A DNA stretch of 49,557 bases from Oscillospiraceae bacterium (lineage in GTDB: Bacteria; Bacillota; Clostridia; Oscillospirales; CAG-272), in the NCBI GenBank assembly GCA_015065135.1, contig SVQY01000013.1, positions 1-49,557 on the forward strand. The letters run 5' to 3'. Under the pieces are notes generated by a model, which ran no database searches, was not told the DNA's origin, and was given only the letters and a program-made list of their open reading frames with translations. Both the position numbers and the translations under genes were made by a program. Positions 1 to 11,966 of this stretch are shown here, piece by piece (position 1 is the first letter of the stretch; each line of letters opens with the position of its first letter).

Positions 1-2
1 TG

Positions 3-689
3 GTTTACGTGTTGAGTGGAAAAGCGGAGTACCGTTTTTTTACGGGTGATCGCATCACGATCACGGACGGTGACGTACTGTTTCTTTCGCCAAATTGCGC
101 TTATTCTATTGTTACGGAAAGGGCATTCAAGCATTATACCGTAAATTTTGATCTTCATGAGGATTCGTCACATCTTGATGCGTTAGGGAGGGCGTATTGT
201 CTGCTGCAAGGAAAGAACTCGGAGCAGATCGAGCGGATCTTAAAAGAATTGATCGGCGCATGGAGCTTGAAAAAGGCAGGCTATGAAATGCGGTCGGTGG
301 GTTATCTTTATGAGCTGCTCTCGCAATTTTATTTTGAATATACGAAGGAACAGAATTCTGCGATCTGTCAAAGGCTGCTCCCCGCCAAGGAGTATATTGA
401 GCAAAATTTCAAAGCCCCTATGACCTTGGAGCAGTTAGCGTTTATTTCCAACATGAGTGTGACGAATTTCAGACGGGAATGGAAAAAAATATATGCGGAG
501 GCACCGATGCAATACCGTGACGCGATACGGCTGTATTATGCCAAGGAATATCTGAATAGCGGATATTATACGGTTTCGGAGATCGCGGAAAAATGCGGAT
601 TTGATGACGTGAGCTATTTCGTTCGATTCTTTAAAAAGAACGTAGGTGTGACGCCCGGAGAATTTCGTCGGCAACTGTTAAAAAACTAA
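3..689 (+). CDS. AraC-family transcriptional regulator, 5' end cut by window
   Basis: The reading frame is open from the first bases (GTT TAC GTG), so the gene starts left of the window. The GTG at position 9 is probably internal. The visible N-terminal part resembles the cupin-like AraC ligand-binding domain (around GDVLFLSPNCAYSI). The last ~100 residues form the two-helix-turn-helix DNA-binding domain, ending in the typical segment SEIAEKCGFDDVSYFVRFFK. It probably activates or represses a catabolic operon lying further left. It points at the hairpin and spoIVB fragment at 691-868, the same arrangement as the AraC genes at 5804-6577 and 9956-10738, so it appears to be the regulator of a third cassette. 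Family assignment is secure; the ligand is unknown. Confidence 0.9.
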   Translation, partial: VYVLSGKAEYRFFTGDRITITDGDVLFLSPNCAYSIVTERAFKHYTVNFDLHEDSSHLDALGRAYCLLQGKNSEQIERILKELIGAWSLKKAGYEMRSVGYLYELLSQFYFEYTKEQNSAICQRLLPAKEYIEQNFKAPMTLEQLAFISNMSVTNFRREWKKIYAEAPMQYRDAIRLYYAKEYLNSGYYTVSEIAEKCGFDDVSYFVRFFKKNVGVTPGEFRRQLLKN

Positions 690-690
690 A

Positions 691-734
691 AATAAGGCAA
701 TATCCCATACCGTTTGGTGGGATATTGCCTTATT
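691..734. terminator. Bidirectional hairpin terminator, copy A
   Basis: A perfect 17-bp stem (691-707 with 718-734) encloses a 10-nt loop. The stem is flanked by A/T runs on both strands, so it can end the AraC transcript and transcripts reading the other way. Core stem and loop are repeated at 10743-10778, beside the intact spoIVB. Confidence 0.8.
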
Positions 735-868
735 TTATGATAGCGGTACCGCCATATTGGCAAGCATATTCTCAATAAAAATCCCATACCCCGTGGTGGG
801 ATCGCCGATGAGGACGTGAGTGACCGCGCCGATGAGGTGCCCGTCCTGAATGATGGGGCTGCCGCTCA
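735..868 (-). pseudogene. spoIVB 3'-end fragment, copy A
   Basis: Read on the minus strand this encodes [10 protein letters not shown] through the C-terminus ANMAVPLS and stop, the last ~44 residues of the intact SpoIVB at 10783-11814. Only a handful of bases differ from that gene, and identity continues through the downstream hairpin. The rest of spoIVB is missing. Homology ends at the codons of the catalytic GMSGSP motif, where a foreign 22-nt arm (869-890) begins. The internal base differences (ATTTTTATTGAG instead of ATATTCATCGAA) are shared with copy B, not with the intact gene. Confidence 0.9.
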
Positions 869-890
869 CGAGTGTGGTGGTAAAGGACAA
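869..890. repeat. Cassette arm next to spoIVB fragment A
   Basis: These 22 bases contain GTGTGGTGGTAAAGGACAA and match 20 of 22 bases at 6813-6834. They occupy the same position relative to the spoIVB fragment in both copies and are absent beside the intact spoIVB. The xylA stop codon lies 17 bases further on. This is what a conserved attachment-site arm of an integrating element would look like. Confidence 0.65.
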
Positions 891-906
891 CAAAATTTCA
901 CAAAAA

Positions 907-2223
907 TTATCCAAACAGTGTTCTGTTGACAATACTTTCAAGATATTCTTGTCTGCCGCTGTCGGGATTGGGGCAAGTACCCATTTGCTGTGCGCGAGTT
1001 GCAAGCTCATCAAGTGTGCTATTTCCGTTTCTTATCCTCTGTCCAAGTTCGCTCTTAAAGCTCTCGTATTTCTTCTCAACAAATGCGTCAAGCTCGCCGT
1101 CCTCGATAAGCTCTGCTGCCTTGATAAGTCCGAGAGCAAAGGTATCCATACCGAGAATATAGGCGTGGAACATATCCTCGTAGGTGTTGCTCGGTCTGCG
1201 GTTTTTCGCGTCAAAGTTGAAACCGCCGGTAAGTCCGCCTGCCTTCAGCACCTCGTACATACACATAGTGCTTTCATATACATCATAGGGAAACTCGTCG
1301 GTATCCCAGCCGAGCAGATAGTCGCCCTGATTTGCGTCGATTGAGCCGAGCATTCCGTTGATAGCAGAAATTCTCAATTCGTGACGGAAAGTATGTCCCG
1401 CAAGTGTTGCGTGGTTTGCCTCAATGTTCATCTTGAAGTTCTTGTCAAGTCCGTACTGACGCAAAAAGCCGATAGCCGTTGCCGCATCAAAATCATACTG
1501 ATGCTTCATCGGCTCCTTGGGCTTAGGCTCGATGTAGAAGTCACCCGTAAAGCCGATGCGTCTTCCGTATTCAACAGCCATTCTCATAAGGTTGGCAATG
1601 TTTTCCTGCTCGAATTTCACGTCGGTGTTAAGAAGCGTTTCATAGCCCTCACGACCGCCCCAGAATACGTAGCCCTTGCCGCCAAGCTTTACCGTCAGCT
1701 CAAGAGCCTTCTTTATCTGCGCCGCCGCAAAGCAATAAACGTCAACCGAGTTCGTACTGCCCGCGCCGTTCATGAAGCGAGGATTTGAGAACATGTTTGC
1801 CGTACCCCAAAGGCACTTGATGTCAGTTTCCTTCATCTTCTCAAGTATGTAGTCTGTTATCTCGTCAAGGCGGCGGTTGGTCTCGTTGATGTCCTCAGCC
1901 TCGGGGACTATATCGACGTCGTGAAAACAGAAATACTTGATACCGAGCTTCTGCATAAACTCAAAGCCTGCATCAACCTTGGCTTTTGCGTGTTCCATCG
2001 TGCCTTTTTCGGCACCAAAGCTCTTGTTTGCTGTGTCTCTGCCAAACATATCTGTGCCCGCCGCGCAGAGATTGTGCCACCAAGCCATAGCGAAAGGGAG
2101 ATGCTCGCGCATTGTTTTGCCCATAATTACTCTGTCCGCATCGTAATATCTGAATGCCAACGGATTTTTCGTCTTCTTTCCCTCATACTTTATTTCTGGA
2201 ATGTTCTTAAAAAATTCAGCCAT
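907..2223 (-). CDS. xylA: Xylose isomerase
   Basis: Converts D-xylose to D-xylulose in the cytoplasm using two divalent metal ions. The 438-residue length is standard for class II xylose isomerases. Family signatures are present: [11 protein letters not shown] (His101 and Asp104 at the active site), [22 protein letters not shown] with the metal-binding Glu, and [15 protein letters not shown]. The ATG at 2223 has a GAAAGGA ribosome binding site. It is the last gene of a minus-strand operon xylB - beta-xylosidase - xylA, 48 bp after the beta-xylosidase stop. It takes xylose released by that enzyme and hands xylulose to XylB. Its stop codon sits 17 bases from the cassette arm. Confidence 0.97.
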
Positions 2224-2271
2224 TTTATTTTTTTCCTTTCAATGAATTCAATAAAAATGTTATCCTGTGAT

Positions 2272-4209
2272 TTACCAAACAAAAATTTGATTTTTTCCCT
2301 CTTGTAAACTTACAAACGGACCTGGGATAACTCTGTTATCTCGTTTGTTACCAACGAAATCGCAAGAAAGATCAATGGGAGTACCATCCGAATTTTCGTA
2401 AGGTTCTTCCGAAATACAAGGCTTTCCAAGCCGCTCTCCGGTAACGGCTTGACAAGAAGCGTTTGCCAACGAGTCGGAGACAAACAGTGTCAAAATCCAC
2501 GATTCGTCAGTTTCTTCAAGAGAAACTCGTGTTTTCTTTGCATCGATCGGATCGATCTCATTTTTATGATGCTTTGCAAAGCCCGCATATGCATTTTCTT
2601 CAACCCAAACGGGTTGTGGAACGTTGAAAATAACGTTATGATCCTGAGGTTTAAGTTGCTCATCCATCATTTTTCGATAATCATCGAACGTGGAGTATTT
2701 AGAGTGTGAATTACCAAAATGCTTTAACAAACTAGATTCAGGACCCGTTCCTATTACAATATTATTTATCAAGCGGTCATCTCCACCATAAACGAAAGCA
2801 TATCCTTTAACATCGGTGCTATGCGCAAAGTGATACGGGGTTGCTCTGTCCACAATTTTATAGCTCCATACCTTGCCGCAGATCAGATTATGAACGTAAG
2901 CGGTTCCTTGCGCCGCGTTTTGAATAGCAATTGGCGAAAGAAAAATATTGTCATCCACAAGGCATGGACCGTGTGTGACCTCGATCATCAAATCGCGTCC
3001 GTTTTTGTGGAATAAATTTTTTGTAATTCGTGTACCCTGAACCTGCCAATCAAGCCAAATTCCTAAAGAACAGTCGTGGATATTATTATTTTCAATTACC
3101 GTATCTATGGGAGCGTGTAACTTAATTCCCGCGATTTCGTGTCCCCAAAATTCCTGCTTTCTACCGATGTTGTAGATGTGATTGTGTTCAATACGGCTAA
3201 ATGCACAACCCATGTGTCCAACGATTCCCGTTTGCCCGCAATCGTGAATAACGTTGTTGCGAACGACGTGAGAACCAATGTTCTCACGGTTCCATCCCGC
3301 CGAGTATATTGCATAAAAAACGGATTCCATTTGATGCTGATACCCCGATTTTCTGAGAAAACGCGATTTTAAATTATGTCCCGTGGAGATTTCTTTACCA
3401 AGACTTACCGCTGAACATTTTGCATCGTGGAAATGATTGTTTTCTATGATCCAACCTTTTGCCCAATGCGGTCCTATCATACCGATCTGCTCGGCGGTGG
3501 GAGGTGCCCATTGCGTTGCGGCGTGAGCCATTTCAAAGCCCCGAACGGTGATATAATTCAATCCTGTTTTTTTGGGGAAAAAGCAACTTGGGCGAACGCT
3601 TATCTCAACCGTTTCTCGATTTGGATCATACTCTCCGAAATTGCAGAACAGTTCGGTATAGCTGTCTTCCACTTGAGCATACCACTGATATACCGTACTG
3701 TCGGGATCTCCGATCGTCTCGTCAAGCTCCATCAAATCGGCCCTAAATCGCATCCAACGAATACGTTTTTCTGCGACGAGCAAAGATTCCATATCAGGAG
3801 CTTCGTACATTGAAACACCATTCAGATAAACGTCACCGAGATGAACATCATAATCCATAGGAAAAGTCATCCAATCTCCAAAAATCTTCGTTGCAAACGG
3901 GTTGAATTCACCAAACATAGAGTTTGGCAAAACAGTTTTCCACACATTTCCTTCTACGTGCTCCCACCCAATAACAACTTCCGAGCCTTTTATAATCGGA
4001 GTTTCTCCTGCAACGGCTTCATATACGATACGGCAATCGTCACTTGTACCACCATTTTGGGGCACTACAGTTTCGCGGTACACACCGCCAAATACACGCA
4101 CAGTATCTCCTGCAACGGCAAGCTGTGCTGCGTGATTTATGGTCTTGAAGGGGCGATCTTTTGTTCCTGAGGAACTATCGTTTCCTCTGCTCGATACGTA
4201 ATAAATCAT
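2272..4209 (-). CDS. GH120 family beta-xylosidase (right-handed beta-helix)
   Basis: The 645-residue protein matches, along its length as I recall it, the GH120 beta-xylosidase XylC of Thermoanaerobacterium: an N-terminal parallel beta-helix opening (KTINHAAQLAVAGDT), an inserted domain around residues 75-210, and the conserved stretch GFEMAHAATQWAPPTAEQ. The catalytic pair of that family is visible as Asp387 in WLDW (nucleophile) and Glu410 in IEVTHGP (acid/base), with the same 23-residue spacing as Asp382/Glu405 of XylC. There is no signal peptide, so it should cleave imported xylo-oligosaccharides to xylose in the cytoplasm. The start overlaps the xylB stop by 4 bp (ATGA), with a GGGGG ribosome binding site inside xylB. 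Automatic annotation may call it only a DUF1565 or beta-helix protein. Confidence 0.88.
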   Translation of the reverse strand: MIYYVSSRGNDSSSGTKDRPFKTINHAAQLAVAGDTVRVFGGVYRETVVPQNGGTSDDCRIVYEAVAGETPIIKGSEVVIGWEHVEGNVWKTVLPNSMFGEFNPFATKIFGDWMTFPMDYDVHLGDVYLNGVSMYEAPDMESLLVAEKRIRWMRFRADLMELDETIGDPDSTVYQWYAQVEDSYTELFCNFGEYDPNRETVEISVRPSCFFPKKTGLNYITVRGFEMAHAATQWAPPTAEQIGMIGPHWAKGWIIENNHFHDAKCSAVSLGKEISTGHNLKSRFLRKSGYQHQMESVFYAIYSAGWNRENIGSHVVRNNVIHDCGQTGIVGHMGCAFSRIEHNHIYNIGRKQEFWGHEIAGIKLHAPIDTVIENNNIHDCSLGIWLDWQVQGTRITKNLFHKNGRDLMIEVTHGPCLVDDNIFLSPIAIQNAAQGTAYVHNLICGKVWSYKIVDRATPYHFAHSTDVKGYAFVYGGDDRLINNIVIGTGPESSLLKHFGNSHSKYSTFDDYRKMMDEQLKPQDHNVIFNVPQPVWVEENAYAGFAKHHKNEIDPIDAKKTRVSLEETDESWILTLFVSDSLANASCQAVTGERLGKPCISEEPYENSDGTPIDLSCDFVGNKRDNRVIPGPFVSLQEGKNQIFVW

Positions 4210-5687
4210 TCTTTTATCCCCCTATATAAATTCTTGACCGCAGGATATATCTTGCGGTATTTTTCGTATCTATCCGCGTAAAGTGCTACAAGCTCCTTGT
4301 TGGGCAGAACCGTTTCCTTTATTTCAAAGAACTTGTCGGTAGCCGTCTTTACACTATCAAACTGTCCCGATCCCACCATGGCGAGAATTGCCGAGCCGTA
4401 ACCGGGACCTTGCTCGGTGGTGGGAATATTAAGCTCAATATCAAGCACGTTAGCGAGTATCTCTCGCCATAGCTTCGATTTCGCTCCGCCTCCGCACAGA
4501 CAGCTTGCTTTCACGTCAATACCGAATTGCTTAATCACCTCAAGGTTGTCCTTGATAGCAAAGGCAACGCCCTCAAGCACGGCTTGATACATATCTGCTC
4601 TTGATGTATTTGGGCGAAGTCCTATGAACATACCCGTTGCGTCCGTGTCGTTTATGGGGCTTCTCTCTCCCATCAAATAGGGCAAGAAGAATACCTCGTT
4701 TCTGCCGAGTCGGTTGCGTTCGATCGTAGTCTCCTCGAATTGATAATCGGCGGTTTTCAGCACTTCGTCGCAAAACCATTTGTTGCAGGAGGCGGCCGAA
4801 AGGATACAACCCATCAGATGATAACCGCCGTCGGCGTGACAGAAGGAGTGGATCGCATGCTTTTCATTGCCCGAAAAACGGTCGCTTGAAACAAAAATCG
4901 TTCCCGATGTGCCGAGAGAAATGTTGCATCTTCCATCTCCGACCGTTCCCGTTCCGACTGCGGCTGCCGCGTTGTCTCCCGCCCCCGCAACCACAACGGC
5001 ATTTCGATTGATTCCAAATTTTTTCGCGATCGAAGGTTTGATTTTGCCAACCGCCGAAAAGCTTTCGTAAAGCGCGGGCATTTGCTGCTCCGAAATGCCG
5101 CAGATTTCCAGCATTTCCCGTGACCAGCATTTCTTTTCTACGTCCAAGAGAAGCATTCCAGCCGCATCGGAAAAATCGGTGCAATGCACTCCCGTGAGAA
5201 GAAAGTTGATATAATCCTTGGGAAGCATGATTTTTTTGATTTTTGCAAAATTTTCGGGCTCGTTTTCGCGCAACCACAACAGCTTCGGCGCGGTAAAGCC
5301 CGCAAAGGCAATGTTTCCCGTAAGCGCAAACAGCCGTTTTTTGCCAACCGTTTCGTTCAAAAATGCTGTTTCCTTGCGGGTGCGTCCGTCGTTCCAAAGG
5401 ATCGTTGGACGGATAACCGCGCCATTTTCATCCAGCACCACGAGTCCGTGCATCTGTCCCGCCGTACCGATGCCGCGAATGGCTTGACCGTCCACCTCGC
5501 CGAGCAATTCAGGGAGTCCGTTGCAGATGGCGTTCCACCAATCGGCAGCGTTTTGTTCACTCCAGCCCGAGTGAGGATAGGATACGGGATATTGACGACT
5601 CACTGTTTTTTGAATGATACCCTCACCGTCCAAAAGCATCAGCTTTACCGAGGAGGTGCCGAGATCAATGCCAATATAATATTCCAT
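4206..5687 (-). CDS. xylB: Xylulokinase
   Basis: Phosphorylates D-xylulose to D-xylulose 5-phosphate with ATP, feeding the pentose phosphate pathway. This is a FGGY-family kinase of 493 residues, the normal length. The N-terminal ATPase motif IGIDLGTSSVKL, the substrate-site segments GQMHGLV and WNDGRT, the catalytic GAGDNAAAAVG and the C-terminal nucleotide motif CGGGAKSKLW are all present. It is the first gene of the minus-strand operon. The ATG at 5687 has a GGGGG ribosome binding site, and the stop overlaps the beta-xylosidase start. It is divergent from the AraC gene starting near 5804, which probably controls it. Confidence 0.96.
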   Translation of the reverse strand: MEYYIGIDLGTSSVKLMLLDGEGIIQKTVSRQYPVSYPHSGWSEQNAADWWNAICNGLPELLGEVDGQAIRGIGTAGQMHGLVVLDENGAVIRPTILWNDGRTRKETAFLNETVGKKRLFALTGNIAFAGFTAPKLLWLRENEPENFAKIKKIMLPKDYINFLLTGVHCTDFSDAAGMLLLDVEKKCWSREMLEICGISEQQMPALYESFSAVGKIKPSIAKKFGINRNAVVVAGAGDNAAAAVGTGTVGDGRCNISLGTSGTIFVSSDRFSGNEKHAIHSFCHADGGYHLMGCILSAASCNKWFCDEVLKTADYQFEETTIERNRLGRNEVFFLPYLMGERSPINDTDATGMFIGLRPNTSRADMYQAVLEGVAFAIKDNLEVIKQFGIDVKASCLCGGGAKSKLWREILANVLDIELNIPTTEQGPGYGSAILAMVGSGQFDSVKTATDKFFEIKETVLPNKELVALYADRYEKYRKIYPAVKNLYRGIKE

Positions 5688-5700
5688 TTTGCCCCCTTTT

Positions 5701-5725
5701 TCGTTCTAAAAAACGAATCGAACGA
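5701..5725. promoter_or_regulatory. Inverted repeat between xylB and araC, candidate operator
   Basis: TCGTTC (5701-5706) and GAACGA (5720-5725) form an inverted repeat in the xylB leader, with further GAATCGAACGA-like half-sites between. Its position between divergent genes suits a site for the adjacent AraC regulator. No footprint-level support is possible from sequence. Confidence 0.35.
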
Positions 5726-5755
5726 AGATTTCAAGACAATAATAGCATTTATTTC

Positions 5756-5784
5756 TTGACAATTCCAGCAAAAAAGCGTATAAT
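5756..5784 (+). promoter_or_regulatory. Sigma-A promoter of the cassette 1 araC gene
   Basis: TTGACA (5756-5761) and TATAAT (5779-5784) are separated by exactly 17 bp, a perfect consensus. The TTG of the -35 box is also the first possible in-frame start of the AraC reading frame, so the real start must lie downstream. Confidence 0.85.
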
Positions 5785-5803
5785 AGTAGACAGAATTTTA
5801 CTT

Positions 5804-6577
5804 TTGAGGAAAAACATATTTTATCAAAACCAACATTTTGGAATTTCCGAATATTTTTGCAAGGAAATGGGGGAGAATTTTTCCTTTCCCGCGCACATTC
5901 ATCATTCGTTCGAATTGATTACGGTGCTGGAGGGGCATATGATGGTGACGGTGGGCACGGACAGATATGAGTTGAGTGTGGGAGAGGGAATTGTTGTGTT
6001 TCCCGAGCAGATCCATTCGCTCGGCAGCACAAAAAGCCGACACCTACTCGTGATCTTTTCTGCGGATATCGTGAACGCGTACTATTCCAAGCACGCCTCT
6101 GAAATCCCCCAAAGTGGAAAGATCACCCTTCCCGACTATCTCTTAAACCAAATATCACTTCTCGAAAGCTCCACCCCCTCTGTAAAAAAGAAAGCGGTGC
6201 TGTACTCGGTGTGTGCGCTTCTTGATGAAAGCACCGAATACAAAAAAAGAAAAAACGCGGAAAACGGACTGCTCCGCGCAATCTTTGACTTTGTGGAGGG
6301 CAATTTTCAAAAAAAATGTACACTGGAGGATCTGGGCAACGCCACAGGCTACAATCGTTCGTATCTCTCTCGATATTTCAGCGAGGCCACCAATATGTCC
6401 TTTCTGTCGTTCGTGAATCGGCGCAGAATCAGTAAGGCGTGCGAGTTATTGAAAAGCAGTGACAAAACGGTTCTCGAATGTGCCTACGACTGTGGCTACA
6501 CGTCGCTTCGAAGCTTCAATCGCAATTTCAAGCTGTATATCGGAGTTTCTCCAAAGGATTATAGGAATAACGCATAA
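5804..6577 (+). CDS. AraC-family regulator of the xylose cassette
   Basis: The N-terminal cupin domain carries FPAHIHHSFELITVLEG and VFPEQIHSLG. The C-terminal ~100 residues hold two helix-turn-helix motifs (LEDLGNATGYNRSYLSRYF and VLECAYDCGYTSLRSFNRNFK). It probably senses xylose or a xyloside and controls the divergent xylB operon. The frame is open from 5756, but that codon lies in the promoter -35 box. Later candidates are TTG 5804, the rare ATA 5816 (5 nt after GAGGA), and ATG 5867. I list 5804 as a compromise because the segment FGISEYF before 5867 looks like genuine domain sequence. The gene ends in the cassette hairpin at 6633. Confidence 0.88.
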   Translation: MRKNIFYQNQHFGISEYFCKEMGENFSFPAHIHHSFELITVLEGHMMVTVGTDRYELSVGEGIVVFPEQIHSLGSTKSRHLLVIFSADIVNAYYSKHASEIPQSGKITLPDYLLNQISLLESSTPSVKKKAVLYSVCALLDESTEYKKRKNAENGLLRAIFDFVEGNFQKKCTLEDLGNATGYNRSYLSRYFSEATNMSFLSFVNRRRISKACELLKSSDKTVLECAYDCGYTSLRSFNRNFKLYIGVSPKDYRNNA

Positions 6578-6632
6578 ACATTAATTTTAGGTTAGCTGCC
6601 GGATTGGACTTTGGAAAACGAAACATAATAGC

Positions 6633-6673
6633 AAAAGGCAATATCTTTCCGTTTCGGAATGATATTGCCTTTT
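6633..6673. terminator. Bidirectional hairpin terminator, copy B
   Basis: A 13-bp stem (6633-6645 with 6661-6673) extends inward by TTCCG/CGGAA after a one-base mismatch and is followed by a T-run. It is analogous to the hairpins at 691 and 10743 (shared AAGGCAATAT and ATATTGCCTT) but has a different loop, matching the different spoIVB allele next to it. Confidence 0.8.
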
Positions 6674-6678
6674 TTGTT

Positions 6679-6812
6679 TTACCCCGCTAAATCTCTCATC
6701 TGATTCAGCATATTCTCAATAAAAATCCCGTACCCCGTGGTGGGATCGCCGATGAGGACGTGAGTGACTGCGCCGATGAGGTGCCCGTCCTGAATGATGG
6801 GGCTGCCGCTCA
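6679..6812 (-). pseudogene. spoIVB 3'-end fragment, copy B (different allele)
   Basis: On the minus strand this encodes [10 protein letters not shown] to GIFIENML and then a unique ending, NQMRDLAG-stop, in place of the resident ANMAVPLS. The core is nearly identical to copy A and to the intact gene; the last 24 bp are unrelated to either. It looks like the 3' end of another strain's or species' spoIVB, brought in with a cassette. There is no upstream part of the gene. Confidence 0.88.
6731..6768. repeat. 38-bp block identical in all three spoIVB copies
   Basis: This stretch (also at 787-824 and 10835-10872) is identical in all three copies and encodes [12 protein letters not shown]-like residues of the SpoIVB C-terminus. 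It is the longest run shared by all three and so a candidate for the crossover zone of integration or homologous recombination. Confidence 0.7.
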
Positions 6813-6834
6813 GGTGTGTGGTGGTAAAGGACAA
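6813..6834. repeat. Cassette arm next to spoIVB fragment B
   Basis: Second copy of the 22-nt arm, including GTGTGGTGGTAAAGGACAA. The activase stop codon begins only 4 bases beyond it. Two mismatches to 869-890 lie at the end nearest spoIVB. Confidence 0.65.
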
Positions 6835-6838
6835 AAGT

Positions 6839-7669
6839 TTATAAAAAAATCTTTTTTAGCTTTGACATTTTTTCTTCACTTGGCACAGAAAACATTTTCA
6901 CTTCCTTGCCGATAGCCGCATACTTATGCTCACCCATAGCGTGATAAGGCAAAAGTTCAACCTTTTCGGGATATTTGCACGAACGCAGAAAGGCTCTGAT
7001 ATGTTGCAGTTCTTTCTCATCATCGTTGACTGAGGGAATAATGGGGATTCTTACCCATACGGATCTGCCTGTTTTCAAAAGCTTTTCGAGATTTGAGAGA
7101 ATTAACTCGTTTGCAGCACCCGTATATCGCTTGTGCTTTTCACTGTCGAAGCATTTGACATCATAAAGAAACAGATCGGTGAAGGGAAGTATTCTTTCAA
7201 AGCACTCAAACGGCACGTTTCCCGCGGTATCGACCGCAGTATGTATGCCGTTTTGCTTGCAAGCCTTCAAAATCTCCTCAAGAAAATCAATTTGCAGCAT
7301 ACATTCGCCGCCCGAGAAGGTGACACCGCCGCCAGAGTTTTCATAGAAAACCTTGTCTTTCAGGATTTCTCTCATAACCTCGTCGACGGTATATTCCTTT
7401 CCGCAGATCTCCCTTGCGTCGTGAGGGCAATAAATCGTACATTTGCCGCAAAGCTCGCACGATTCCAAATGATTCGGGCATTTTTCTTTGCATTTTCCGC
7501 AACCCGTACACTTGTTTTTGTAAAACATCATTTGCGGCAAAGCACTTTGACTTTCGGGATTGTGACACCATGCGCAACGCAGATTACAGCCCTTGAAAAA
7601 TACCGTCGTGCGAATCCCGGGGCCGTCAACGTAGGAGTTGCGTTCAATATCGAATATCGTTGCTTTCAT
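6839..7669 (-). CDS. Glycyl radical enzyme activating enzyme (radical SAM)
   Basis: Uses S-adenosylmethionine and a 4Fe-4S cluster to abstract a hydrogen from the glycine of its partner enzyme. The radical SAM triad is Cys28-x3-Cys32-x2-Cys35. Two further clusters are predicted from ferredoxin-like cysteines 54/57/60/64 and 71/74/77/81, the arrangement seen in activases of dehydratase-type glycyl radical enzymes rather than PflA itself. VTFSGGE supplies the SAM-contacting GGE motif. The 276-residue protein starts 7 bp after the stop of the glycyl radical enzyme it must serve, so the two are co-transcribed. Confidence 0.93.
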
Positions 7670-7676
7670 AGTTCTC

Positions 7677-9803
7677 TTATCGCGTTTGTGTCGTTCTGGC
7701 GATCACATCATCCTGCAAGGCTTGGTTCAGCTTGACGAAATAATCCGAAAAGCCCGAGACTCGGACACGAAGATGCTTGTAGGAATCGGGATCTTCTTGC
7801 GCGCGGAGCAAATCCTCCTTGGAAACGTAGGTGAGCTGGAAGTGGATGCCCCCGCTTTGCAAATAGGTTTCAAACAGCTTTACTGTTTTTTCGAAATGCT
7901 CGTCGTTCATGACCAATTGCGCATCAATGGTGACGTTTGTGACGGTAGGACCGTTGAGAATATGATGTGGGTCGCATTTTGCTACCGAATTCAGCAGGGC
8001 GGAAAGTCCCTCTCGATCGTGTCCGCCGCTTTGCCCAAGTCCGAACTTGAAGGGCTCACCGCTTTTTCGTCCGTCGGGAGTAGCGGGGGTTCTCTCTCCG
8101 AACCATTTGTGATGCTCATGATATCCGATGAGGTTTCCGGCCAAATATTTATGTCCGAACATGGAACGTTTATCGTTCAGATAGTGATACAGGCTGCCTG
8201 TAAAGCGTCTTGCAACCTCGTTTGAGGGTTCGTTATCGTTTCCAAAGAAATTACCTTTCTTTTGGATCAGCGCGAGCAGATCCTCGTGTCCTTCCCAATT
8301 GTCGCGCAATGCCTCGAGAAGCTCTCCCATAGAAAGGAGCTGTTCGTCGTATACGAACTGCTTCATGACGGCAAGGGAGTCGATGACGTTGGGGATGCCG
8401 ATCAGGTCAATTCCCGAGCAGGCTACCGTAGCGCCGCCCTGTGTCACGCTCTTACCGCGCTCCACACAGCCCTTGAAAAAGATACTGCTGACGATATTGA
8501 CATCTCTTGCTCGCAGAAGATTGAATTTGTCCTCATAATCCAGAATCTCACCAAGATCGGCAAACAGTTCCTTTTCATAGATTTGATAAAAGTCATCGAA
8601 GGTCGAACAGGAGAGTAGGGCATCGCTGCGTTCATGCAGAGTACGGGCAAGCGAACGAACAATGTTTTCCTGTGCGGAGCCCATATAGATCCCTCCCGGG
8701 AAGGCGACCTCGTTGCAGCCGACCATGGTATAATTGACGGCATCCTCGTAGGGCATTCCAAGATATTCGGTAAATGCCTTGATCTTTGGCTCGTCGTTGA
8801 CGAATGCGATCCGCTTGTTCGGATCCTTGCGCTCACAATCCATCATAAAGCGAAAGACCTCGGAGGGGGTCTTTTTTGTCCAACGCAGGGAGATCTGGGG
8901 AATATAGGTGGGAAGATCCATCAGCGCTTCCACGATCAGCCGCGACAGCTCGTTGAAGCCATCCTCTCCGTTCGGCAGATAGCCGCCAATGGCAAAATGA
9001 GATTCGCCGCCGCGATAAAAATTGGACCACTTTTTGGGCGTGTGGGATTGCAACATCAAAAACAGTTCTTGCAGGTATTCCTTTGCCATATCCTTGGTCA
9101 GTGTTCCGTTTTGGATGTCCTTTTGATAATAGGGATAGAGATAACGGTCGGCAAGACCGATACTGTCCGGAACGAAGGAAAAGCAAAGATAGACCGTCAG
9201 CACGGCTTCATAAAAGCTTTCGGCGGGATGCTCGGGAACCTTTTTCAGGCTCTCGGAGAGCAGGAGCAGGTTTTGACGGTATTTTTGTGTGCCCGTGCTT
9301 TGCGCAAGCGCATAGGCCTTGTGGGAGCATTTGTGCGCCCAGCCGATCAACGCATCGCAAAAGTCCGAGAGGGCACCAAGAAATTCGATGGCTTCACCGT
9401 CTTCTGCGTGAAACTGCTTAGACGCATTTATGCGCCTGCGTATGCCGCTGATACCGTCTTTGAGAACTTCCTCAAAGTTTGCGGTGGAGTGCTGCCATTC
9501 AAGCGTGACGAGATTGTGCAAGGGAGACTTATAAAAAGCCTTTTTTGCTTGCTGAAAAGCGAGATGTCCTTTTCGCCCGAAAATATCCCCTTCCACCGTG
9601 CCGTCGAAAATCAAATGCCCCGTCATTGCGCACTCCTCGCGGAGCATAGGCTCTTGCGCCAGAATATATTCGCAGACTCGCTTAGCCGACATGGCAACGG
9701 GGGAAAGAAACAGGTCCTCCCGATCATATTCGACTGCGACGGTTTGGGGATACATTTCTCCTGCAAGAGTTATTTCTGCCAGCTTTTTGATTCTTTCGTT
9801 CAT
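7677..9803 (-). CDS. Glycyl radical enzyme, substrate unknown (GCxE class)
   Basis: The ATG at 9803 follows a GGAGG site, giving 708 residues; the longer open frame to 9965 lacks support. The C-terminal glycyl radical motif is RVSGFSDYF with Gly684. The active-site cysteine lies in VGCNE (Cys363, Glu365). A Cys-x-Glu pair is known from the eliminase branch (glycerol and propanediol dehydratases, choline TMA-lyase, hydroxyproline dehydratase) and separates this protein from pyruvate formate-lyase, which has Cys-Cys. The Asn between them and the short length differ from the members I know, so I leave the substrate open. Neighbours are only the activase and an AraC regulator, with no microcompartment or aldehyde dehydrogenase genes. 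Confidence 0.88.
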   Translation of the reverse strand: MNERIKKLAEITLAGEMYPQTVAVEYDREDLFLSPVAMSAKRVCEYILAQEPMLREECAMTGHLIFDGTVEGDIFGRKGHLAFQQAKKAFYKSPLHNLVTLEWQHSTANFEEVLKDGISGIRRRINASKQFHAEDGEAIEFLGALSDFCDALIGWAHKCSHKAYALAQSTGTQKYRQNLLLLSESLKKVPEHPAESFYEAVLTVYLCFSFVPDSIGLADRYLYPYYQKDIQNGTLTKDMAKEYLQELFLMLQSHTPKKWSNFYRGGESHFAIGGYLPNGEDGFNELSRLIVEALMDLPTYIPQISLRWTKKTPSEVFRFMMDCERKDPNKRIAFVNDEPKIKAFTEYLGMPYEDAVNYTMVGCNEVAFPGGIYMGSAQENIVRSLARTLHERSDALLSCSTFDDFYQIYEKELFADLGEILDYEDKFNLLRARDVNIVSSIFFKGCVERGKSVTQGGATVACSGIDLIGIPNVIDSLAVMKQFVYDEQLLSMGELLEALRDNWEGHEDLLALIQKKGNFFGNDNEPSNEVARRFTGSLYHYLNDKRSMFGHKYLAGNLIGYHEHHKWFGERTPATPDGRKSGEPFKFGLGQSGGHDREGLSALLNSVAKCDPHHILNGPTVTNVTIDAQLVMNDEHFEKTVKLFETYLQSGGIHFQLTYVSKEDLLRAQEDPDSYKHLRVRVSGFSDYFVKLNQALQDDVIARTTQTR

Positions 9804-9833
9804 ATCGCACCTCCAAAAAATCAGGTTGATATC

Positions 9834-9862
9834 AGTATACCCCTTGCCAAAAGCCAAGTAAA
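9834..9862 (-). promoter_or_regulatory. Promoter of the glycyl radical enzyme operon
   Basis: On the minus strand, TTTACT (9857-9862) and TATACT (9834-9839) are spaced 17 bp apart, upstream of the GGAGG and ATG at 9803. The weak -35 box suits an activator-dependent promoter. Confidence 0.55.
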
Positions 9863-9911
9863 TGCACGAAATACTTCTTTTGCATTTTTCCGTACAACTT
9901 TTGAGAATATA

Positions 9912-9940
9912 TTGACAAATTTCAGCAGAGATGTTATACT
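9912..9940 (+). promoter_or_regulatory. Sigma-A promoter of the cassette 2 araC gene
   Basis: TTGACA (9912-9917) and TATACT (9935-9940) have 17-bp spacing. Transcription would begin around 9947, only about 9 nt before the ATG at 9956. Confidence 0.8.
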
Positions 9941-9955
9941 GCAATGGGTGATAGT

Positions 9956-10738
9956 ATGGACACAAAGTTTATGATTACGGGCATCGACCGAGTGATAATG
10001 GTTGGACAAGACGAATATGCCGATCAAAAGATCTCTTTTAATCACACATTAAAATCAAATGAATTGATTTTTCACTTTTCGGGACACAGCACGGTATATT
10101 TTGACGATCTGATTTTGGAAACGGCTCCGAACACCGTTCGCTTTTTGCCAAAAGGAAAGCCCCAAAGATACGACGTGATGCATCACGAAAAGGGAGAATG
10201 TATTGACGTGTTCTTTCAAACCGACCGTCCGATCTCCGAATGCGCTTTTAACGTCAACGTTGCGCAAAACGAGAAGCTCGGCTCGCTATTTAAAAGGATC
10301 TTTGCAACGTGGGTCGGAAGAAACGACGGATATTATTTTGAATCGCTATCCCTCCTTTACAATATTTTCGCCGAGCTGCAAAAAAACAATCACAGTCCCA
10401 AACAGCATTCCCTTAAAATAAAGCCTGCGGTAGATCATATCCACGACAGATTTTTGCAGGATGAGCTTTCAACCCCGGAGCTTGCCGCAATGTGTGGTGT
10501 CAAAGAATCCTATTTCCAAAGGCTCTTTAAGGAAAAATACGGTCTCTCTCCCAAAAAATACATCATCCAATTAAAGCTCAACCATTCCTGTGATCTGTTG
10601 CGCCTTGAGCGTTATTCCGTGGCGCAGATTGCCGAGATCTGCAATTTTTCCGACATCTACTATTTCAGCCGAAAGTTCAAGGAATACATGGGAATCACAC
10701 CGACCGAATTTATCAAAAAATATAAGTCTTCAAAATGA
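9956..10738 (+). CDS. AraC-family regulator of the glycyl radical enzyme cassette
   Basis: A 260-residue protein. The N-terminal part is a cupin-like sensor (FHFSGHSTVYFDD, RFLPKGKPQRYDV). The C-terminal part has two helix-turn-helix motifs, LAAMCGVKESYFQRLFKEKYG and IAEICNFSDIYYFSRKFKEYMG. The in-frame ATG at 9944 falls at the expected transcription start, so ATG 9956 is the likelier start. The leader would then be too short for a normal ribosome binding site, and none is visible. It is divergent from the enzyme operon it presumably controls. It ends in the hairpin bordering spoIVB. Confidence 0.9.
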   Translation: MDTKFMITGIDRVIMVGQDEYADQKISFNHTLKSNELIFHFSGHSTVYFDDLILETAPNTVRFLPKGKPQRYDVMHHEKGECIDVFFQTDRPISECAFNVNVAQNEKLGSLFKRIFATWVGRNDGYYFESLSLLYNIFAELQKNNHSPKQHSLKIKPAVDHIHDRFLQDELSTPELAAMCGVKESYFQRLFKEKYGLSPKKYIIQLKLNHSCDLLRLERYSVAQIAEICNFSDIYYFSRKFKEYMGITPTEFIKKYKSSK

Positions 10739-10742
10739 AAAC

Positions 10743-10778
10743 AGGCAATATCCCATACCGTTTGGTGGGATATTGCCT
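10743..10778. terminator. Bidirectional hairpin terminator, copy C
   Basis: A perfect 13-bp stem (10743-10755 with 10766-10778) and 10-nt loop, same core sequence as at 691-734. It lies between the convergent AraC gene and spoIVB. Confidence 0.82.
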
Positions 10779-10782
10779 TATT

Positions 10783-11814
10783 TTATGATAGCGGTACCGC
10801 CATATTGGCAAGCATATTTTCGATGAATATCCCATACCCCGTGGTGGGATCGCCGATGAGGACGTGAGTGACCGCGCCGATGAGGTGGCCGTCCTGAATG
10901 ATCGGGCTGCCGCTCATGCCTTGAATGATCCCCCCGCTTTTGGCGATCAGATCCTTGTCGGTCACGTGGACGGTGAAGCATTTGTTGCCATCCGCCTCCC
11001 GATGGATGGCAGAGATCTCGGCGGCATATTCCCGCGGTGTGTTGTCATCCAGAGTGCACCACAGGGTCACCGCACCGTTGTGGATCTCGTTTTTATACGC
11101 AATGGGCAGCTTGCCTGCGGGTAGCGTGGGACAGGCGGAAAAGCTACCGAACACGCCGCAGGGAGTGTTCTGCGTAAGGGTGCCGACCCGATCTGCGGAA
11201 AAGTGCCCCTTCAGCTCGCCCGGCGCACCCGGCGCACCACGGGTAAGACCGCCGATGGTCACCCCCATGACGTTGCCGCTGGCAAGTGGGATCAGCGCGC
11301 CGCTCTCGCTGTCACAGATACCGTGTCCAAGGCCGCCAAAGGTGTTCTGCTCGGTGACAAAGGTCACGGTGCCGATGCCGGCACCCGAGTCTCTGACAAA
11401 CAGCCCCGTGCGCCATTTTCCATCCTTATCGCAGGCTACCGGCATCAGGCTTGCTTTGCGCTCCTCGCCATCACGTCGATAGGAAATTTCAATACCGTTA
11501 TGGGCATTTTCGGTAATTTTGGCCGAGAGCTCTGTTGCGCTCGACACCGCTTGGCCGTTGACACAGTAGATGCAATCGCCGGGGCAGATGCCCGCTGCTC
11601 TGGCAGGGTTTTCAGTCTTGCCGCCGTGCTCCACGTCGCAGTATCCCACTACCAGAACACCATCGGTCACAAACCGCACACCAAAGGGAACGCCGCCCAC
11701 AAAAAGCGTGGGGCGGGCCTCCTCCGCGGCCGCCCGTACCGGCAGCACCGCTGTTATCATTAGAATGAAGAGCAGCAACAGGCTGCCATATTTTTTTATT
11801 TTGTTTGAAAGCAT
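10783..11814 (-). CDS. spoIVB: SpoIVB serine peptidase (stage IV sporulation)
   Basis: SpoIVB is made in the forespore and cleaves SpoIVFA, triggering pro-sigma-K processing in the mother cell. The 343-residue form starts at ATG 11814 behind a GGGGGA site; the in-frame TTG at 11829 overlaps that site. An N-terminal hydrophobic anchor (residues 10-28) precedes a PDZ domain (about 40-125) and the S55 peptidase domain. Catalytic residues are visible as His164 (GLGHGICD) and the Ser of GMSGSP (Ser301). This is the only complete copy. Its last ~133 bp are repeated at 6679 and 735, and both fragments diverge from it exactly at the catalytic-serine codons. The usual neighbours spo0A and recN are not in the window. 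Confidence 0.95.
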   Translation of the reverse strand: MLSNKIKKYGSLLLLFILMITAVLPVRAAAEEARPTLFVGGVPFGVRFVTDGVLVVGYCDVEHGGKTENPARAAGICPGDCIYCVNGQAVSSATELSAKITENAHNGIEISYRRDGEERKASLMPVACDKDGKWRTGLFVRDSGAGIGTVTFVTEQNTFGGLGHGICDSESGALIPLASGNVMGVTIGGLTRGAPGAPGELKGHFSADRVGTLTQNTPCGVFGSFSACPTLPAGKLPIAYKNEIHNGAVTLWCTLDDNTPREYAAEISAIHREADGNKCFTVHVTDKDLIAKSGGIIQGMSGSPIIQDGHLIGAVTHVLIGDPTTGYGIFIENMLANMAVPLS

Positions 11815-11966
11815 GATCTTTTCCCCCAAAAAATTCGCTTGCTATTACTATGTGCGATTTCGTGGCTCTTCATCAATAGCAATTAAAACGCATATTGCCA
11901 TGATTTTATGAAACGCAAAGCACGAGGTTTTTTATAATTTAATCGTAAAAAAGCCGTGGTCGGCGA

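Follow-up and report, generated by a model that had tools for sequence, protein, structure and literature searches.

What accounts for a run of three copies of the 3' end of a sporulation gene, only one of which belongs to a full gene? The question is raised by a contig of 49,557 nucleotides from an Oscillospiraceae bacterium (GenBank assembly GCA_015065135.1, contig SVQY01000013.1; order Oscillospirales, family CAG-272), here called the window (contig C52 of an assembly estimated to be 84% complete), in which the end of spoIVB, the gene for the SpoIVB peptidase, recurs beside genes for AraC-type regulators. The answer that we consider probable is that spoIVB anchors a mobile system of large serine recombinases (LSRs), comparable to staphylococcal cassette chromosome (SCC) elements and integrons, in which LSR-bearing elements split the gene and recombinase-free cassettes restore it. 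Below, P denotes the element motif, B the host side of the attachment site and B' the spoIVB 3' end, with a hyphen marking the join; our handles for genomes, contigs and loci begin with G, C and L. Gene names in the window rest on Pfam and NCBIfam, and those outside it on reading of the sequences.

Displaced spoIVB ends stop at a single base

The full spoIVB gene, a peptidase S55 gene and the proposed attachment site B-B', lies on the minus strand at 10783..11829 (open reading frame list, PF05580, and a TIGR02860 score of 313 bits against a cut-off of 305). It includes the third of three direct copies of the spoIVB end, which occupy 690-868, 6634-6812 (72% identical to the first copy) and 10738-10916 (96% identical to the first). 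The copies are spaced by 5944 and 4104 bp and each is adjoined by a plus-strand AraC-type gene (Pfam), so that repeat search, open reading frames and domain searches bear out the original prediction of three direct copies about 5.9 and 4.1 kb apart, with an AraC gene beside each and only the third copy in a full gene.

Both displaced copies, R1 (735..866, or 735-868 including TG; minus strand; 96.2% identical to the end of the intact spoIVB of the close relative G017) and R2 (6679..6810, or 6679-6812 including TG; minus strand; open to the stop codon), stop at the identical base within the M-SGSP motif, between the codon for M and those for SGSP, whose serine we take to be catalytic. Beyond the join they share a motif (869-891 and 6813-6835) that the intact window gene does not have, and a fourth copy, partly deleted and with the same motif, lies on another contig of the window genome (C39, ~413-533). 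The repeat spacing sets two whole units, A (869..6812, 5944 bp), with R2 as its B', and B (6813..10916, 4104 bp); a third unit, that of AraC1, whose B' is R1, is truncated by the contig start. The B' of the intact gene (10783..10914, minus strand; 43 codons and the stop) is the replacement end of unit B, and the TG at 10915..10916 (minus strand), which forms the second and third bases of the Met codon ahead of SGSP, is the proposed crossover dinucleotide, on the strength of the join position and of the split genes and pairs of like elements described below, in which the switch is exact. The three B' copies in the window form a mosaic.

Two elements of the original prediction are modified here. 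The hairpin that it placed beside each copy is a real feature, but it is a terminator between converging genes, as in the bidirectional hairpin between AraC3 and spoIVB (10743..10778, plus strand), and not a recombination site; and attachment does occur at the spoIVB 3' end, but the exact point, the TG before SGSP, and the half-site of the element had been missed.

A conserved half-site precedes the displaced ends

The motif beyond the join is a half-site P of about 24 nt, GTTGTCC..TTGACCACACTCG and then TG, that precedes displaced ends; in the spoIVB sense it reads approximately GTTGTCC-YTWNTTGACCACACTCG-TG, with the spoIVB end after it. In the window it is present on the minus strand at the end of unit A (869..891) and of unit B (6813..6835, where the GTTGTCC consensus is altered at its first base). 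In 44 of 48 distinct P-B' junctions, extracted with a script that required TG at the join, TTGTCC begins exactly 25 nt upstream of that join. In a separate count, 57 displaced spoIVB fragments were found in the collected loci, 45 of which align from the join; TTGTCC, with at most one mismatch, lies 20-31 nt upstream of 43 of these 45, of none of 34 intact genes, and in 9.7% of shuffles. Many loci had been selected by the motif itself; others were selected by spoIVB similarity alone, and the motif is there too. Chance is excluded as the source of the shared motif. TG alone is common at the join, with no core of 6-8 bp, and both AGC and TCN codons follow it, even within one array.

Within the window's family, 32 of 395 genomes contain the motif pattern, at 41 places of which at least three look like chance, as against two genomes for a reversed control; matches in G242, G244 and G004:C8 were set aside as chance-like. 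When 84,980 species were searched with a 21-base pattern, 44 stretches were returned, each from a record whose title gives a metagenome genome of Clostridia or Oscillospiraceae; the samples named in titles are sheep, goat, deer or yak gut. In IMG/VR there was no match to the strict family motif or to two attP or half-site patterns. P-B' junctions are present in many genera of the family and in four further families of the order (G051, G552, G517; G475, G610; G513; G549). At least two SpoIVB C-terminus matches were found in 22 of 297 order genomes. Twelve of these, all outside the family, were examined: the junction is present in six (G552, G517, G475, G610, G549 and G513) and was not seen in the stretches taken from G525, G426, G540, G526, G556 and G615. 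The arrays can be long, as in G229, where one intact spoIVB is accompanied by six clear displaced ends and one decayed end within ~34 kb. In G397 (L103, ~3391) the P half-site is followed directly by the terminator, the spoIVB end being missing, a decayed junction.

The replacement end travels with the cassette

In G017, the AraC1 of the window stands directly at the intact spoIVB, without the two intervening cassettes. In the 900 nt leading up to the join, G017 and the window are 71.3% identical; in the 866 nt beyond it, which comprise B', the terminator and AraC1, identity is 96.8%. The switch falls within about nine bases of the join, and the intact G017 spoIVB is therefore a chimera. AraC1 itself (1..689, plus strand; PF12833), the regulator of the cassette cut at the contig start, is 96.9% identical to G017 when taken with its terminator. 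Two other pairs rank first and second among 171, for which the median is 34.8%: G014/G110, from different genera (57.5% before the join, 86.4% beyond the gene), and the window with G003 (63.8% and 84.4%). Their switch point is less sharp, because the first 105 nt past the join are only 81-83% identical.

Whole cassettes are shared as well. Unit B of the window is also found in G003 (91.5% over 3622 nt), a cassette of AraC, hydrolase and EamA genes is present in both G135 and G229, and a phd-doc cassette of ~0.8 kb is common to seven genomes in four genera, its right end being P at the join in G002, G011, G337 and, partly decayed, G375, and different in G414, G248 and G255. As far as sequence comparison can tell, cassettes and their B' ends have thus moved across species and genera. 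Comparison of the spoIVB locus across relatives, which revealed other cassettes ending in the same fragment as well as the G017 arrangement, lends support to the earlier proposal of serial capture, in which recombinase-free cassettes of regulator and operon are added with spoIVB kept whole.

The same junction is found in elements that split spoIVB

Loci that carry the same element in different hosts show where that element ends. Between L207 and L293, identity is 100.0% for the 1000 nt leading up to the join and 67.6% for the 71 nt beyond it; the corresponding figures are 99.4-99.7% and 67-88% among L297, L298 and L299, and 95.3% and 71.4% for L209 and L265. Since these sequences are near-identical before the join and divergent after it, a single element end is joined to the spoIVB of different hosts exactly at TG, which is what site-specific integration would predict.

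The other side of the join can be followed in G636 and G608, in which the 5' part of spoIVB is on one contig and the 3' part is behind an LSR triplet on another. The 5' part ends in ATG, after which comes a 24-nt P' half with GGGACAAC at its end; a 24-nt P half and TG precede the 3' part, and in both genomes the rejoined flanks are in frame (GGIVQGM^SG(A/S)P). P, TG and P' together form a 50-bp near-palindrome with 40 symmetric positions in G636 and 30 in G608, compared with a mean of 12.8 and a maximum of 28 in shuffles of the G636 site. LSR attachment (att) sites are about 50 bp long, with an attP that is symmetric about the central dinucleotide, according to the available part of PMC5595907.

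Two palindromes lie behind the intact spoIVB of G540 (L197:3700-3829), the second of which is a complete 50-bp P-P' beside an inverted cassette. Palindromes of 47-49 bp behind spoIVB parts number 19, in 12 of 33 array genomes (one genome in the control); among those on contigs not otherwise read, the three that were checked are each by an intact spoIVB. We rejected the 47-49 bp palindromes as active attP sites and read them as remnants, because they do not have the 24+2+24 geometry; perhaps they are used as terminators.

LSR triplets adjoin the spoIVB junction

Searches of viral and phage records with SpoIVB itself, the sole source of the link to LSRs, returned five loci (L206-L209 and L213) in which P-B' is close behind three adjacent LSR genes, and such triplets are found within 1 kb of a P-B' junction in gut elements that include human-gut and IMG/VR records. 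PF00239, PF07508 and PF13408 are present in each of the six complete LSRs that were examined. Near the element end of L207 and L208, Pfam identified three neighbouring genes that have Resolvase and Recombinase domains, and the same three-gene order was recognized by reading in L206, L209, L213, G636, G608, G399 and G097. Orthologs of the third LSR are present in G636 and G608, in the family genomes G399, G146, G097 and G095 (>800 bits), and in more IMG/VR records.

B' lies within 1.5 kb of 14 of 24 distinct third-LSR orthologs (~50% identity or more), with five contigs ending first; none of 57 other LSRs has B' at E<=1e-3 (there are three short, weaker matches). If the five orthologs found through SpoIVB are left out, B' is present in 9 of the 14 with enough flank. 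In the window's family three of four orthologs have B'; the full triplet is present in G399 and G097, and in G146 the contig starts at the third LSR. An LSR gene within a unit was seen in one case, L207, behind its B'.

An LSR cluster in G375:C39 and two adjacent LSRs in G255:C28 were discarded, as there is no half-site and spoIVB junction in the stretches read. Seven of 13 SpoIVB C-terminus matches in the phage collection were examined (H1, H2, H3, H5, H7, H8 and H9), together with one of three plasmid matches (H14); H2 is element L213, and the other seven are continuous spoIVB genes and not elements. Six loci titled 'Bacteriophage sp.' (L210-L212, L214, L215 and L217) look like bacterial contigs, because spoIVB is continuous in them and its neighbours are chromosomal-looking. 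Further LSR clusters, each of two or three neighbouring genes, are numerous in order genomes (L220-L247); they are 30-38% identical to the spoIVB-type third LSR and presumably target other genes.

Some LSR-triplet elements (L250-L252 in G636:C22, and L287) have, by reading, ParA/ParB-like, ParM-like and primase-like genes, a content that suggests a plasmid-like or conjugative element. In G399:C157 (L314-L315), an LSR triplet and P-B' form the end of an island that carries two-component, ABC-transporter and AraC-type genes and that adjoins, by reading, a sporulation sigma factor gene and spoIVA. In G146 (L316, ~1771-1982), the last ~12 codons of the spoIVB end behind the LSR are repeated three times in tandem.

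Cassettes carry regulated operons

The 37 stretches between successive spoIVB parts, a few of them bounded by weak spoIVB matches, contain 110 open reading frames of at least 90 aa, which encode glycyl-radical enzymes and their activases, proteins for pentose use, dehydrogenases, glycoside hydrolases, EamA-type transporters and phd-doc, along with AraC, XRE and other regulators. No recombinase was seen among these 110, so the cargo is recombinase-free as originally proposed, and to this can now be added a suitable recombinase, borne by separate elements that share the attachment site.

In the window, unit A is a xylose operon with the genes for xylose isomerase XylA (907..2223; TIGR02630 above cut-off), a beta-helix glycoside hydrolase resembling glycoside hydrolase family 120 (2272..4209; PF21258, PF13229) and xylulokinase XylB (4206..5687; TIGR01312 above cut-off), all on the minus strand, and with AraC2 on the plus strand (5756..6577; Pfam). 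Unit B is a glycyl-radical enzyme operon, in which a radical S-adenosylmethionine activase (6839..7669; PF04055, and TIGR02494 above cut-off) and a pyruvate formate-lyase-like glycyl radical enzyme (7677..9803; PF02901, PF01228) are encoded on the minus strand and AraC3 (9944..10738; PF12833, PF00165) on the plus strand.

A model for cassette capture and its alternatives

In the mechanism that we propose, spoIVB would serve as the common chromosomal attB (B-B') for an LSR system in this clostridial order. Autonomous elements, which have a triplet of neighbouring LSR genes towards one end and an attP of 24+TG+24 bp (P-P'), would insert at the TG that precedes the SGSP codons, thereby splitting the gene. 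Cassettes would instead carry a hybrid site, P joined at TG to B' (43 codons, stop and terminator), and an LSR triplet supplied in trans would recombine the P-B' of a cassette circle with the chromosomal B-B' at TG, joining the host 5' gene to the B' of the cassette. Insertion would leave spoIVB whole, the attachment site rebuilt and the old B' pushed behind the cargo, and repeated insertions would give arrays. The benefit may lie in a common pool of regulated operons, inserted at a position where they need not impair sporulation. We lean slightly towards the fuller claim that this is an order-wide, integron-like capture platform for shared catabolic, toxin-antitoxin and transport cassettes, in which the triplet rebuilds gene and site through P-B' and attB.

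Several observations weigh against this mechanism. Across the 33 array genomes, the Pfam search found no LSR gene on any array contig, and 11 of these genomes are without any serine recombinase match, which leaves either action in trans or an enzyme lost long ago; nor is there an LSR-triplet ortholog in the window's genus among the genomes listed. Five of the 19 third-LSR orthologs whose flank is long enough are not followed by a spoIVB end (L267 and L286-L289; behind the third LSR, L287-L289 all have one and the same sequence). Recombination of P-B' with B-B' also differs from the textbook pairing of attP with attB. In several genomes (G001, G034), B' copies are near-identical near the join and diverge farther out, which indicates homologous recombination or conversion among them, and the named carriers of the strict motif are all metagenome assemblies.

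Homologous recombination among B' copies is probably also at work. That it acts alone, the cassettes being relics of old LSR insertions that now spread and rearrange solely through their spoIVB ends, we regard as unlikely. The absence of a recombinase from the cassettes, the frequent near-identity of B' copies of one genome by the join and the mosaic in the window would all fit such an origin, but the switch between G017 and the window falls within about nine bases of the join, cassettes are common to genera whose spoIVB is only 57.5% identical before it, the half-site is conserved across genera and families, and a full 50-bp P-P' persists beside the inverted cassette of G540. Movement by a chromosomal Xer-like tyrosine recombinase is disfavoured and, in our judgement, very improbable: although each of the 33 array genomes has at least one tyrosine recombinase, and the best match in the window genome is XerC/XerD-like (below cut-offs), it is LSR triplets and not Xer that adjoin the junction, only TG rather than a 6-8 bp core is common there, and the sole tyrosine recombinase on an array contig is ~108 kb away (G375:C14). 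We give even less credence to an assembly or binning artefact, or to a single fixed ancestral duplication, a concern raised by the metagenomic origin of the strict-motif carriers, since the same junction is found inside single contigs from two assembly series (RGIG and SIG titles) with differing cargo and copy number, and again in IMG/VR and human-gut records.

Relation to known systems

Integrons have a primary site, cassettes with a shared half-site that are inserted serially beside the primary site, and a recombinase that acts in trans. The LSR system at spoIVB resembles them in its primary site, shared half-site and serial insertion, and probably in a trans-acting enzyme. It differs in its serine, not tyrosine, recombinase, in multi-gene cassettes with their own regulators and in a primary site inside a protein gene. 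No PF00589 match, as expected of an IntI-type integrase, was found near any array in the 33 genomes (the nearest is ~108 kb away), and, in a by-eye comparison with the form of attC, the site here is not attC but P-B' with its 24-nt half-site.

SCC elements, as far as the available part of PMC6243372 describes them, use serine recombinases and a single site in the 3' part of a gene that is kept intact, and form tandem elements of which some are recombinase-free. The spoIVB arrays share the intact target gene, the tandem elements and the lack of a recombinase in some of them. The SCC target, however, is the 3' end of orfX/rlmH and not the SGSP codons of spoIVB, and SCC elements have ccrAB or ccrC where here three adjacent LSR genes reside on other elements, a distinction of gene arrangement; here, moreover, the cassette brings a 43-codon replacement end, and autonomous elements split the gene. 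Because defining features of both are missing, we do not file the system under SCC or integrons.

The autonomous elements belong with two groups of LSR elements. Integrative and conjugative elements of Streptococcus have a serine-integrase triplet near the element end, 2-8 bp repeats and a disrupted target gene, the targets being mutT, traG and hsdM, with no cassette arrays in the part of the description available (PMC4701971); the three adjacent genes are a feature of the autonomous elements here and not of the cassettes. Interrupters of sporulation genes (skin in sigK, SP-beta in spsM, gin in gerE and yin in yabG; PMC5595907, in part) are likewise LSR elements that split a gene whose flanks rejoin in frame, as in G636 and G608. 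They differ in target, the three serine recombinase genes of gin are non-adjacent, and gene-restoring cassettes do not appear in the available part of that account. We did not find spoIVB described as a target of either group: in open-licence literature, no paper was found that links spoIVB with 'integration site' or 'serine recombinase', and none on spoIVB with 'genomic island' or 'mobile genetic element', including PMC5894183, appears from the parts available to describe such a system. The original remark that no described system of this kind was known holds for spoIVB itself in the papers searched, but the logic parallels SCC and integrons.

Implications

In uncultured gut Clostridia, cassettes appear to be moved by recombinases borne on separate elements that share their attachment site. 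If this is true, integrons and SCC would have a clostridial equivalent, and spoIVB would be a fixed, readable address at which gut spore-formers swap whole regulated operons. The spoIVB junctions offer a simple means of listing this mobile catabolic gene pool, with candidate enzymes named, and a new att site for a bacterial group with few genetic tools. They also raise the biochemical question of whether an LSR triplet can recombine a site that is half attP and half attB, and the question of why the gene for a spore-signalling protease became the dock.

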